Below are positions 2,088-23,993 of a DNA stretch of 64,000 nt, one piece after another. The DNA is taken from assembly GCF_031951985.1 (NCBI RefSeq), contig NZ_JAVLVU010000001.1, positions 4,898,001 through 4,962,000 on the forward strand, given 5' to 3'. The stretch comes from Mucilaginibacter terrae (lineage in GTDB: Bacteria > Bacteroidota > Bacteroidia > Sphingobacteriales > Sphingobacteriaceae). The position numbers were made by a program, and so were the translations under genes. Position 1 is the stretch's first letter, and every line of letters begins with the position of its first letter. Under the pieces are notes generated by a model. That model was not told where the DNA came from, did not search any database, and worked only from the letters and a program-made list of their open reading frames with translations.

Positions 2088-2330
2088 GAAAGGTTTTTTT
2101 TCTCTTGAGAGGGGGAGCTTATCGCTTCGGTAGCGCTCATTGCCGCGCGGGCTACTACTTTGGCATAGCCCCAAAGTAGCAAAACGCCTATTCATCGCAA
2201 TCCCTGCCACCCCACAGGCAGCTCCCGGCCGGGTGCGCTGAATGCCCCGCGCTCTTGAAAAACTGAAATCAGTTGCGCAGCAACTGATTTCACCCTTCAC
2301 CACTCACCAATTGTTAATTTTTGTTAAAAC
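2088..2330. repeat. GC-rich non-coding repeat-like element with two hairpins
   Basis: No convincing gene lies here. The GC-rich stretch holds a 9-bp stem CTACTTTGG (2155-2163) / CCAAAGTAG (2171-2179), and a perfect 13-bp stem (2264-2276 / 2280-2292) with a 3-nt loop. Its base composition is clearly richer in GC than the flanking promoter region (2331-2437). It resembles dispersed intergenic elements of Sphingobacteriaceae, but no second copy is in this window. Confidence 0.5.
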
Positions 2331-2365
2331 AACTAAATTCTTAGTTTTTAACTAACTTCTTAGTT
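2331..2365 (+). promoter_or_regulatory. Duplicated palindromic operator AACTAA-N4-TTAGTT
   Basis: Two 16-bp palindromes, 2331-2346 (spacer ATTC) and 2350-2365 (spacer CTTC), repeat with a 19-bp period, close to two helix turns. The second overlaps the first base of the -7 element at 2365. This is the expected layout for cooperative binding by a dimeric repressor; the regulator is not in the window. The half-site geometry would suit a BlaI/MecI-like or other winged-helix repressor, but that is a guess. Confidence 0.75.
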
Positions 2366-2372
2366 ATATTTG
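2365..2372 (+). promoter_or_regulatory. -7 promoter element (TAnnTTTG) of the GLPGLI operon
   Basis: TATATTTG matches the Bacteroidetes -7 consensus TAnnTTTG and would give a 5' leader of about 60 nt before ATG 2438. It abuts the duplicated palindrome, so bound repressor would occlude it. Confidence 0.65.
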
Positions 2373-2437: not shown

Positions 2438-3412
2438 ATGAAACTTAAACTTTTCACCACAATTTTACTTGCTAACCTGGCTGTTGCAGCCCAGGCGCAA
2501 AAGGCCGATACTGCCCAGGTCATCGTTCATTACAAATTTACGCATGTGCGCGACACTACCGCGCGAGACAAGCCCCTGAATGAAAACATGGTGTTGCTGG
2601 TAGGGCGTAATGCAAGTGCTTATAAAAGCTACGACCGCAAACTGCGCGAGGAGCAAATGCGCAGGTCGGTAATGGAGCAGGTAAATTCCGGATCTACCAA
2701 CTTTAAGCTTACCAGCCCCGGTGGACCAATGGGACCCAACATTGAATACTATCAGTATCCTAACGATAACAAATTTTATATTAATGAGCGTGTGGTAAAC
2801 AACTATGTTATTGAAGAGGCTATGCCCGCCCCGGCCTGGAAAATTACTGCCGACACGAGTACCATTAAAGGCCTGGCTTGCCAAAAAGCTACCACTCATT
2901 TTAAAGGACGTGATTATACCGCCTGGTTTTGTGCTGATCTACCTTACCGCGTTGGTCCGTGGAAACTGAACGGCTTGCCAGGGCTCATTGTAGAAGCCTA
3001 TGATGCTAAAAAAGAGGTCTTATTTAATTTTGATGGTTTGGAAAAGGTTGACCCAACTGCCAAAGCTACAAATGAGGCCGACCAGTTGAGTGCTACTGGC
3101 CGTACCATTATTGTTGGTGCAATGGGCGGTGATGGCAACCAAAATCCCAACGTAATAGCTTTACCTAAAAACGCCATTAAAACCACACCTAAGGAACTTA
3201 GCGAATTAAAGGAAATTATGCGTAAAGACCCGCAGGCTTTCATGCAATCGCAAATAGCAGCAATGGGTGGCGGTCGCAGCTTTTCGATGAATAGTGGAGG
3301 TGCAGCCGGTTCTCCGGTAATATCGAGCGTAAGCGTTCAACGTGCACCGGCCGGTACGGCTGCTGTGATAAATAATCCTATTGAACTACCCGAAAAAGGC
3401 GCTAAAAAATGA
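2438..3412 (+). CDS. GLPGLI family secreted protein
   Basis: 324-residue protein with a signal peptide ending near AQA-QKA (residue ~20), so it is exported to the periplasm or surface. The family signature GLPGLI is at residues 179-184, followed by VEAYD as usual. The function of the family is not established. The C-terminal ~80 residues are rich in Gly, Ser, Ala and Pro and look disordered. The stop codon overlaps the start of the following barrel gene (ATGA), so the two proteins are probably made together and may work together at the outer membrane. Expression is probably controlled by the double palindrome upstream. Confidence 0.9.
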   Translation: MKLKLFTTILLANLAVAAQAQKADTAQVIVHYKFTHVRDTTARDKPLNENMVLLVGRNASAYKSYDRKLREEQMRRSVMEQVNSGSTNFKLTSPGGPMGPNIEYYQYPNDNKFYINERVVNNYVIEEAMPAPAWKITADTSTIKGLACQKATTHFKGRDYTAWFCADLPYRVGPWKLNGLPGLIVEAYDAKKEVLFNFDGLEKVDPTAKATNEADQLSATGRTIIVGAMGGDGNQNPNVIALPKNAIKTTPKELSELKEIMRKDPQAFMQSQIAAMGGGRSFSMNSGGAAGSPVISSVSVQRAPAGTAAVINNPIELPEKGAKK

Positions 3413-6084
3413 GAAGGGCAATAGAAATTGCCGTAGCCTGTATTTGTGCCTTGTTATGTTCTCAAAAGGGCATTGCCCAAACTATTAAGGGTACAGTTAC
3501 AGATAGCCTGGGTAAGGTGGTGCCTTACGCCAATGCTAAACTCATGAAAGGTGGTAACCTAATTATAGCCTTTTCCACCAGTGATAATAAAGGTGTATAC
3601 AGCCTGGCTATTCCGGCTGATGCCGATAAAACTGGGTTAAAGGTTGAAATAAGCTCCGTAGGTTATAAAAAACAAAGCAAGCCCGTAACTGATTTTGCTG
3701 TTCTGTATAACTTCAAACTATCATCAACCAATAACGCGCTTGATGCCGTTACGGTGAAAGATAAGCGGCCACGATTAAGCACACGGGGTGATACGCTCAA
3801 TTACAGTGCTGCCGAATTTTCGGCCCCGCAAGATAGGGTGATAGGCGATGTAATTAAGCGCCTGCCCGGGGTGGAGATGGACGATAATGGGAAAATAAAA
3901 TATAACGGTAAGGCCATATCGAGTCTGTACTTAGGCGGCGATAATTTGCTTGACGATAAGTACAACATCGCTACCAAAACTATTCCTAACGGGGTGGTTG
4001 ATAAGGTGCAGATCATGGAAAATCATCAACCCATCAAAGCTTTAAAGGATAAAGTGGTAAGCGACGATGTGGCCATGAACCTCACCTTTAAAGATGATGC
4101 CAAAATGCAGATGGTAGGGCAGGGCAATGTAGGCGGTGGTTTGCCCGGAAAATACGACGGAAACGTTAACGCCATGATGTTTAAGGATAAATACAAGGCC
4201 ATTAATTACATTAAAGGCAACAATACCGGTATTGATGTGCAAAATGATTTAATATCGCACAACCTGAGTGCTTACCTGAGTCGTTTGGATAATAATAAAC
4301 CCAATAACTTATTAAGCCTGGGTGCGGCGGGTAACCCCAATTTGCCTACCAACCGTTATTTGTTTAACCAATCGGGTTTGGTGAACATGAACAATTTGGT
4401 GAATGTTAAAAAGGATGTGCAACTGAAAGCCAATGTATCATACCTGCATGACAGGCAACTGCAAAGCTACACCAAGGTGCGCGAAACGTATTTGCCCGAC
4501 CAAACTATTCGTTATACCGAGATGCAGGATAATCGCCGCCGGCCCGATTTGCTGCATGCCCAGGCAACGCTCAACATCAATAAAACCAACTATTATCTCA
4601 ACAATAACTTGGTTACCGATTATGAGAACACCGGTTCATACTCGGGTTTAAACGCTACGGGTATAAGTTCAAACCAGTCCATGAGCAATCGCCGGTTGGA
4701 TTTTTCGAACGAGTTTAACCTCATGAAAACCAGTAAATCGGGGAATGTGTACGAGGGCTATTCGTACATCAACCGCCTATCGAACCCCGAACGGCGTACA
4801 TTGGAGCCGGGTGTTAATCAGGATATTTTTAACAGCGGCCAACCTTATGCGCAACTGGAGCAAACGGCTAACATCCCTACCTGGTTTACCAATAATTATA
4901 TGTCGTTCAGGCATCCGGATGGTAAAATTACGCAGGCGTACAAAGCAGGTTTCAGTTTGCAGTCGCAAAACCTCGAGTCGGTATTGTCAGTAGTACAAAA
5001 CAGCGGCGCAAGCGTTTTGGCAAGCAGTACATCAACCAATAACTTAGACTGGTTTAAATCGAAAGTTTATGGCGAAGCTGCCTTTGAAATGCCCGGAGAT
5101 AAGCTGAGGCTTACCATGCGTTTGCCGGTGAGCTTGCAAAACATCAGCTTTTCTGAAGCTAAATACGCGGTGGATAAAAAGGTAAGCCGTTTGTATTTCG
5201 ACCCGCAATTTTCATTAAAATACAATACCTCTGCCGAGCAGTACGTTACTGCGGGTTACAGTTACCGTAATGATATTGGCGATATTACCCAGGCATACCG
5301 TGGCGACATACTGCTGAATTACCGTACCCTGCAAGCCAACACCGCCGATTTAAGCGAACGTAAAACACAAACGGCAATGCTGGGTTATAACTATCGTAAG
5401 GCTACCAAAATGTTTTTTTGGGGAGTTAGCGCCATGTATAACCATATAGATTTAAATAACATAACCTCGAGCCAAATTACCAATACTTTTCAGCGGCAAA
5501 TTGTATTACCCTATGCTAATGATATGAATATGGTAACGTTATCGGCCAATGTGAGTAAGTATGTTTTTGCGCTGCACAGTACTTTTGCGGGAGGTTATTC
5601 GTGGCAAAACAATAAGCTCAACCAGTTTTTAAACGGTTTGCTGTTACCTTATAATACCATTGCCAACGGTATTAACGGTAGTGTGGAAACCAAGATAAGC
5701 GAAAAGATCAACGTAAGCTACAAGCTGAATGCTACCCGCACAAACAGTCGTACATCTGTACCGGGTGCAGGTACCAATGCTGTTACACAATTACAGCACC
5801 AGGGCGCTTTAAATTATAATCCAGCCAATAATGTTTTCCTTAAACTATCTGGTGATCAGTATTATACCGGGCAAGGCGTGGGGCCTGATCTGAATTATTC
5901 TTTTGCCGATTTTTCGGCCCGGTTTAAAATCAACAAGTTTAAAAGTGATATAGAATTAAACATTCTCAATATATTTGACACGAAAACCTATAGTTCGCCC
6001 CTACTTACTGCAAACAACTATGTAAATAGCGTATACACCCTGCCGGGCCGTATGGCCACTATGAAGGTGTCGTTCAACTTTTAA
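3409..6084 (+). CDS. Outer-membrane beta-barrel protein with carboxypeptidase-regulatory-like domain (TonB-receptor-like)
   Basis: 891 residues. A signal peptide (to about residue 24, IAQ-TIKG) is followed by a carboxypeptidase-D regulatory-like domain (about 25-110: GTVTDSLGKVVPYANA), a plug-like segment (about 120-240) and a large outer-membrane barrel ending in MKVSFNF, a C-terminus with the terminal Phe typical of barrel proteins. It is a member of the 'outer membrane beta-barrel family' often found beside GLPGLI genes rather than a SusC. It starts inside the stop codon of the GLPGLI gene (4-bp overlap). Substrate and partner are unknown; no TonB box was recognised with confidence. Confidence 0.88.
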   Translation: MRRAIEIAVACICALLCSQKGIAQTIKGTVTDSLGKVVPYANAKLMKGGNLIIAFSTSDNKGVYSLAIPADADKTGLKVEISSVGYKKQSKPVTDFAVLYNFKLSSTNNALDAVTVKDKRPRLSTRGDTLNYSAAEFSAPQDRVIGDVIKRLPGVEMDDNGKIKYNGKAISSLYLGGDNLLDDKYNIATKTIPNGVVDKVQIMENHQPIKALKDKVVSDDVAMNLTFKDDAKMQMVGQGNVGGGLPGKYDGNVNAMMFKDKYKAINYIKGNNTGIDVQNDLISHNLSAYLSRLDNNKPNNLLSLGAAGNPNLPTNRYLFNQSGLVNMNNLVNVKKDVQLKANVSYLHDRQLQSYTKVRETYLPDQTIRYTEMQDNRRRPDLLHAQATLNINKTNYYLNNNLVTDYENTGSYSGLNATGISSNQSMSNRRLDFSNEFNLMKTSKSGNVYEGYSYINRLSNPERRTLEPGVNQDIFNSGQPYAQLEQTANIPTWFTNNYMSFRHPDGKITQAYKAGFSLQSQNLESVLSVVQNSGASVLASSTSTNNLDWFKSKVYGEAAFEMPGDKLRLTMRLPVSLQNISFSEAKYAVDKKVSRLYFDPQFSLKYNTSAEQYVTAGYSYRNDIGDITQAYRGDILLNYRTLQANTADLSERKTQTAMLGYNYRKATKMFFWGVSAMYNHIDLNNITSSQITNTFQRQIVLPYANDMNMVTLSANVSKYVFALHSTFAGGYSWQNNKLNQFLNGLLLPYNTIANGINGSVETKISEKINVSYKLNATRTNSRTSVPGAGTNAVTQLQHQGALNYNPANNVFLKLSGDQYYTGQGVGPDLNYSFADFSARFKINKFKSDIELNILNIFDTKTYSSPLLTANNYVNSVYTLPGRMATMKVSFNF

Positions 6085-6212: not shown

Positions 6213-6296
6213 CGTCATTGCGAGGAACGAAGCAATCTCTGAGCTATGTATGGCCGTTATGCCTACGCAGGGATTGCTTCGTACCTCGCAATGACG
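6213..6296. repeat. Interspersed inverted repeat, family 1, copy 1
   Basis: 25-bp arms 6213-6237 and 6272-6296 pair with one mismatch around a 34-nt centre. The right arm with its CCTACGCAG flank matches copy 2 (9061-9097) at all but one base. It lies between two convergent genes. Confidence 0.85.
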
Positions 6297-8970: not shown

Positions 8971-9013
8971 ACAGTTGCTTGTAAGTACACAGACAACGGC
9001 AAACTTTTAAATG

Positions 9014-9097
9014 CGTCATTGCGAGGTACGAAGCAATCTCTGAAACATGCAGTAGTGAATATCCTACGCAGAGATTGCTTCGTACCTCGCAATGACG
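9014..9097. repeat. Interspersed inverted repeat, family 1, copy 2
   Basis: Perfect 27-bp arms 9014-9040 and 9071-9097 around a 30-nt centre. It lies between convergent genes, as copy 1 does. As RNA it would form a long hairpin that could stop transcription from both sides. Confidence 0.88.
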
Positions 9098-9121
9098 TTT
9101 TTATATAAGCTAATCATTCTG

Positions 9122-23974: not shown

Positions 23975-23993
23975 TAACTATTAGTTAGATTTG
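23975..23993 (+). promoter_or_regulatory. Palindrome over the -7 element of the response-regulator gene
   Basis: TAACTA-T-TAGTTA (23975-23987) overlaps the -7 element TAGATTTG (23986-23993), 21 nt before ATG 24015. It resembles the AACTAA/TTAGTT palindromes at 2331-2365. Operator function is inference. Confidence 0.5.

Follow-up and report, generated by a model that had tools for sequence, protein, structure and literature searches.

BlaI/BlaR1 pairs are best known from Gram-positive bacteria, as switches of beta-lactam resistance. Signalling through BlaR1 and BlaI has been reviewed (PMC7593790). Polymerase exclusion has been proposed for both CopY and BlaI, and CopY/CopR recognizes a 16-bp operator, present twice per promoter, with a proposed separate block of sigma factor and polymerase (PMC7253601). 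The one Bacteroidota expression lead comes from Porphyromonas gingivalis, in which excess hemin goes with under-expression of a BlaI gene located close to an M56 gene (PMC10470040), and GLPGLI genes have been assigned to other regulons, for example that of PhoP in Riemerella (PMC9603813). In the openly accessible literature that we searched, we found no link of GLPGLI proteins or of TonB-type M56 proteases to BlaI.

Here we analyze a promoter in Mucilaginibacter terrae whose predicted regulator, a BlaI paralogue that we call type 1, can be compared directly with these systems. As in the BlaI/MecI-BlaR1/MecR1 pairs of Staphylococcus aureus and Bacillus licheniformis, the repressor is of the Penicillinase_R family, the adjacent gene encodes an M56 HExxH protease with a BlaR1-like membrane/protease fold, the operator word occurs in the repressor's own promoter, and the palindromic operators lie in tandem over the promoter. 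There are also differences. The word is AACTAAN4TTAGTT, in which the BlaI/MecI/CopY operator core TACANNTGTA is not found; the sensor is predicted to consist of a TonB C-terminal and a plug-like domain, whereas the classical one is class-D beta-lactamase-like; the predicted targets are envelope proteins rather than beta-lactamase or PBP2a; and one regulator appears to serve several unlinked operons. The CopY/CopR copper repressors of Gram-positive cop operons belong to the same superfamily and also use two operators per promoter, but their core word differs and type-1 BlaI is paired with a protease; it contains no cysteine and therefore lacks the CopY-type Cys-X-Cys metal motif. Judged by their DNA-binding and catalytic domains, the repressor and the protease belong to known families, but two hallmarks usually ascribed to these families, an operator with the core TACANNTGTA and a sensor for beta-lactams, are absent here. 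The present analysis defines, from sequence, the BlaI operator word, its regulon across the bacterial family and the TonB_C plus plug architecture of the sensor.

The GLPGLI/barrel operon and its promoter

The window, by which we mean the whole 64-kb stretch of DNA that was analyzed, encodes on its plus strand a GLPGLI family protein of 324 aa (2438-3412; PF09697 Porph_ging, E 1.7e-6, 28.9 bits against a cut-off of 25) and an outer-membrane beta-barrel-type protein of 891 aa with an N-terminal CarboxypepD_reg domain (3409-6084; its PF13620/PF13715 matches lie below the curated cut-off). The two reading frames share 4 bp at the GLPGLI stop codon, and we place both genes in the same operon. They are neighbors in 30/30 homologues fetched, and family and operon arrangement are those of GLPGLI/Porph_ging (PF09697) plus OMP_b-brl_3 systems. 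The GLPG core of the GLPGLI motif is invariant in our alignment of the family. An AlphaFold2 model of the protein (mean pLDDT 66, rising to about 85-90 in the core) is matched by Foldseek to the PNGF-II N-domain (1e-8), LolA (3e-3), RseB (6e-3) and also LprG. For LolA and RseB the Foldseek probability is 1.0 with a query TM of only 0.28-0.30, and across the LolA/RseB/LprG half-barrels identity is 7-9% and TM about 0.21-0.30 over the query, so the likeness in predicted core fold is a fold-level lead. With moderate confidence, the model points to a LolA/RseB-like periplasmic half-barrel. Because model confidence is moderate, the idea that the protein binds lipids or lipoproteins in the periplasm and acts together with the outer-membrane barrel is a lead only.

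The promoter carries two predicted BlaI-type operators, each palindromic and without an assigned strand. The upstream copy, AACTAAATTCTTAGTT (2331-2346), matches the word found in blaI promoters at 12/12 positions, and the downstream copy, AACTAACTTCTTAGTT (2350-2365), is likewise an exact AACTAAN4TTAGTT, 19 bp from the first. A -7 element, TATATTTG (2365-2372, plus strand), can be read directly, fits the Bacteroidota consensus TAnnTTTG and overlaps the second copy by one base (2365). The initial annotation, which had described two 16-bp palindromes repeating every 19 bp and touching the -7 element, was thus correct on this point. The downstream operator fills the spacer between -33 and -7 and adjoins the -7 element; the upstream operator probably covers the -33 region. 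Exact AACTAAN4TTAGTT words occur twice in the window against 0.01 expected from dinucleotide shuffles, and the 35-bp tandem, with 3 mismatches allowed, once against 0.00. Directly upstream of the operators lies a conserved AT-rich block, TTGTTAATTTTTGTTAAA (2306-2330, no strand assigned). A TGTTAAA-N4..5-TGTTAAA-like sequence occupies this position in most GLPGLI promoters and is also present in the TACGAA-type (type-3) blaI promoters described below; the block could be a promoter or activator element.

A further palindrome in the window, TAACTATTAGTTA (about 23975-23988), stands ahead of TAGATTTG; downstream come a response-regulator gene and then a BLUF photoreceptor gene. It had been taken for a shorter relative of the operator, and its half-sites are indeed BlaI-like. 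We rejected it as the same operator, as its geometry is AACTA-N1-TAGTT and that of the 2331 operator AACTA-N6-TAGTT: with a spacer of 1 bp the half-sites are so much closer that a dimer fitting one arrangement would not fit the other.

Several further elements occur in the surrounding DNA. An Xre/MbcA/ParS antitoxin and RES-domain toxin pair (1140-2087), unrelated to the operon, lies directly upstream of it. A dispersed repeat of 115-145 bp, TTTGGCATAGCCCCAAAGTAG...CGGCCGGGTGCGCTGAATGCC, 84-87% identical between copies, occurs in the window (2117-2260), at L020:12370-12514 and at L022:6336-6452, that is just upstream of the GLPGLI promoter, upstream of another blaI and elsewhere too, and is probably a REP/MITE-like element. 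Another dispersed repeat, this one inverted (CGTCATTGCGAGG...CCTCGCAATGACG), has many copies, among them 6213-6296 and 9013-9106 of the window and others at L025, L027, L029 and L024.

Type-1 BlaI and its M56 partner

The genome encodes five clear BlaI paralogues whose own promoters bear different palindromes. Type-1 BlaI (3008791-3009159 of the genome's single contig, 1.9 Mb from the GLPGLI operon) has AACTAAN4TTAGTT in its own promoter; type-2 BlaI (4767325-4767684) has AACTATN4ATAGTT, repeated; type-3 BlaI and a fourth paralogue have TACGAA/TTCGTA-like pairs; and the fifth is the sole paralogue with CTCTACAATTGTAGAG. These differences led us to drop the idea that all paralogues are equal candidates and single out type 1. 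In relatives, a further paralogue has tandem TACTAATN3ATTAGTA-like words upstream of blaI at four loci, and by these promoters at least four BlaI operator words coexist in the genus. The recognition-helix segment varies with BlaI type, types 1 and 2 both starting with PKPAYNTVST.

The association of type-1 blaI with its word is widespread. In 30/30 loci of the genus the upstream region matches the AACTAA word in 10-12 of its 12 positions. When GTDB contigs were scanned, 80 named blaI loci were obtained, of which 76 promoters were counted for AACTAA; in these type-1 promoters (200 bp each) AACTAA-N4 is the top de novo palindrome and is exact in 63/76, against a background of 5/76 loci of about 10.5 kb each. 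The word ranges over at least 9 genera, among them Mucilaginibacter, Pedobacter, Daejeonella, Sphingobacterium, Siphonobacter and Spirosoma, and four type-2 loci from the same scan have AACTAT in place of AACTAA. A second site lies within 40 bp in 40/76 type-1 promoters (10.9 expected), most commonly at 20 bp (21/40 second sites). Together with the occurrence of the word alongside type-1 BlaI and the tandems of orthologous promoters (see below), this comparison, which covers about 180 genomes in all, indicates that the AACTAAN4TTAGTT palindromes are almost certainly operators of a BlaI-type repressor; the initial annotation had proposed repressor sites. Its suggestion that two dimers sit on one face of the DNA fares less evenly: the spacings of 19-22 bp in GLPGLI promoters and of 20 bp in blaI promoters fit, but the 19 bp in the window amount to only 1.8 helical turns. 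It had also suggested looking for a linked BlaI/MecI-like gene in relatives. No GLPGLI operon was found linked to blaI in the 80 named loci, where isolated OMP-barrel matches were all that appeared, and the regulator is therefore unlinked to the operon.

Type-1 BlaI (about 123 aa) is covered almost entirely by PF03965 Penicillinase_R (residues 6-118, E 6.7e-29) and matches MecI/BlaI structures over residues 5-120 with values from 4.5e-10 (1sd6) to 4e-5, 1okr and 1sd4 included. MecI is cleaved near N101-F102, and its segment LNFVEKE aligns with SFFVQKE of type-1 BlaI. The adjoining gene encodes an M56 membrane zinc protease (PF05569) with HEEVH at residue 149 among transmembrane helices. The modeled structure of this partner (pLDDT 76) has matches to S. 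aureus BlaR1 as solved by cryo-EM (8exq, E 8.8e-5) and also to TonB-CTD and SusC/RagA plug folds. In the 40 M56 partners that we examined across the family, TonB_C is found in 40/40 and Plug in 26/40, and no beta-lactamase or transpeptidase match that would indicate a penicillin sensor occurs in any of them. By these domain matches, the outer part of the protease has, where BlaR1 has its beta-lactam sensor, first a TonB C-terminal domain and then a domain resembling the plug of TonB receptors.

Operator boxes in relatives and the BlaI-word regulon

Absence of the motif upstream of orthologous operons would have spoken against a regulatory role; orthologues keep the tandem. AACTAA boxes 19-22 bp apart are present in the closest GLPGLI orthologues (58-73% identity) and in three more distant ones, TATATTTG or TATGTTTG adjoins the second operator in orthologous promoters, and the downstream operator is conserved in nine genomes. 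Three genomes with type-1 BlaI have no recognizable AACTAA box at the GLPGLI promoter. The upstream position is taken by a TACGAAN3TTCGTA-like box, the word that type-3 blaI promoters carry in tandem, in 12 more distant genomes, and 12/12 of these encode type-3 BlaI. Among five genomes without type 3 the upstream box is AACTAA in 4/5 and TACGAA in one, an 83% draft (Fisher p=0.002, with the own clade, which has type-3 BlaI yet two AACTAA boxes, left out). That draft also lacks type-1 BlaI, and its downstream AACTAA box has decayed to GACTAAGCTGCTCGTT. A look at PF09697 in other genera was not counted, as its top matches are downstream genes of barrel operons and their flanks therefore hold no promoter.

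Loss of type-1 BlaI is accompanied by loss of the word genome-wide. Mucilaginibacter genomes without it (11/121) average 0.9 exact sites as against 4.8 in those with it (n=110; p=2.9e-7; reversed control 1.4). In other genera of the family the averages are 0.32 (n=22) and 2.2 (n=34; p=2e-7), leaving out one genome with a partial type-1 match beside one of its 8 sites. The genomes lacking this BlaI are partly drafts or small, and the difference holds in those of at least 3 Mb in other genera (0.4 versus 2.3, p=1.5e-4; reversed control in the genomes without type 1, 1.6); since the genomes are related and not independent, all these p-values are indicative.

This pattern bears on the best of the alternatives, in which type-2 BlaI, mainly or jointly, binds the operator in vivo and the operon answers another M56 sensor, one without a TonB_C match. 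AACTAA sites vanish with type 1 even though a type-2-like BlaI (best matches 1e-44 to 1e-47) persists in several of the same genomes; both copies in the window are exact type-1 words; and type-2 blaI promoters have AACTAT words and no AACTAA. The two words are, on the other hand, one base pair apart per half-site, so type-2 BlaI could cross-bind, and besides the shared start of the recognition helix there are hybrid AACTATN4TTAGTT boxes at GLPGLI promoters of relatives and an AACTATN4ATAGTT at that of one other genome without type 1. Weighing these, we regard control by type 2 as unlikely and favor type-1 BlaI as the repressor.

The word also defines a larger set of genes. A search of the whole M. 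terrae genome (5.49 Mb, one contig), which the initial annotation had suggested, returned 6 exact 16-mers, whereas the reversed pattern used as a control gave 0; 0/6 of them lie inside a gene, and the genes sharing the motif are mostly of envelope type. Both PF09697 operons bear it, and the first genes of other targets encode OMP_b-brl_3, CarboxypepD_reg, TPR and small secreted proteins. The single-base variant gACTAAATAATTAGTT precedes an operon that encodes a secreted protein of 156 aa together with a repressor of the BlaI family (PF03965) and a BlaR1-like M56 protease. Over 121 Mucilaginibacter genomes exact 16-mers number 536 against about 167 for the control. The shorter 14-mer ACTAAN4TTAGT, with 11 matches versus 7 for the control in the genome, some in coding DNA or terminators, was too loose, and we therefore required the 15/16-mer. 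We also dropped a site downstream of a gene and without promoter context (L030:7074) and an ACTAAN4TTAGT match (L027:7546) that makes up the stretch nearest the loop in a long, perfect, terminator-like hairpin (L027:7521-7585).

Coding and intergenic statistics rest on the fetched sites, about 90 groups of 15/16-mers from 20 genomes. All are intergenic, mostly about 10-120 bp from a gene start; equal frequency in coding DNA had been named as a point that would count against operators, and 0 of the ~90 sites examined lies there. TAnnTTT[GA] directly follows 20/89 sites (2.5 expected). The first genes encode secreted TPR proteins (19 loci), CarboxypepD_reg proteins (15-16; about 400 aa each), OMP_b-brl_3 barrels (about 11, a GLPGLI-like gene next in five), secreted TonB_C or TonB_C-plug proteins (10), MacB/FtsX-type permeases (7) and thioredoxin-like proteins (5), along with blaI-M56 and the GLPGLI/barrel operon. 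Because envelope-protein families recur behind the sites, we read the set as a cell-envelope regulon that includes the GLPGLI/barrel operon. The stand-alone secreted TonB_C(-plug) proteins recur at several loci (L221:2845-3483, L212:2814-3464, L207, L227, L239 and others) and share their domains with the outer part of the M56 sensor; possibly they are feedback titrators of it.

Another alternative makes the palindromes sites of an unrelated regulator, such as a Crp-like protein, a response regulator or the WYL/DeoR-type protein encoded divergently from the paralogous OMP/GLPGLI operon. A gene of the WYL type points away from the site in 5 mapped loci, but it accompanies a single family among the many in the regulon; no regulator gene except blaI has the word in its own promoter across genera, and loss of the motif tracks loss of BlaI, making this explanation very improbable. 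Accidental symmetry in AT-rich DNA, to which Bacteroidota promoters and the chance yield of free-flank 14-mers lend some color, can be set aside given the excess of exact 16-mers in window, genome and genus and the tandem kept across orthologues.

A model for type-1 BlaI and its meaning

Altogether, the comparative evidence (the motif, its regulon, the word in the blaI promoter, its co-occurrence with BlaI and the domain architecture) favors a model of a type-1 BlaI tandem operator, polymerase exclusion and an M56-released envelope regulon, to which as a whole we assign a probability of roughly 0.86. We envision two type-1 BlaI dimers binding side by side to the AACTAAN4TTAGTT boxes, the upstream dimer over the -33 region and the downstream dimer filling the spacer up to the -7 element. 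With both regions occupied, RNA polymerase would be excluded from the GLPGLI/barrel promoter, and this is the simplest reading of how two boxes would repress. In this way type-1 BlaI would repress a group of cell-envelope genes as well as its own operon. Once the TonB_C/plug outer part had read a signal from the envelope, the M56 protease would become active, BlaI would be cut and the regulon derepressed, the GLPGLI/barrel operon included. We infer the DNA binding, repression, proteolytic release and nature of the signal, and by analogy with BlaR1/BlaI the activation of M56 from outside and the cutting of BlaI.

The TonB/plug domains of the sensor narrow the candidate signal and, taken with the envelope regulon, lead us to suggest tentatively that it is the state of outer-membrane transport or assembly. 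More speculatively still in its scope, and with similarly low confidence, Bacteroidota may have turned the BlaR1/BlaI pair into a circuit that keeps watch over the outer membrane, in which both faces of the TonB-transporter contact, TonB_C and the SusC-type plug, replace the penicillin sensor. The protease would read TonB/plug engagement or transporter assembly, and an abnormal state would lead to cutting of BlaI and release of a regulon comprising barrels, GLPGLI proteins with the LolA/RseB-like fold and soluble TonB_C-plug proteins, the last of which may titrate the sensor as feedback. Several BlaI paralogues with differing half-site words would share target promoters whose tandem boxes are interchangeable.

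At least four BlaI operator words exist side by side, and boxes at a single promoter change in line with the paralogues that a genome encodes; together these offer a clean example, from nature, of how regulation is rewired. For the GLPGLI/barrel operons, undescribed until now, the analysis provides a named candidate regulator, type-1 BlaI, and a testable class of outer-membrane signal that would induce them.
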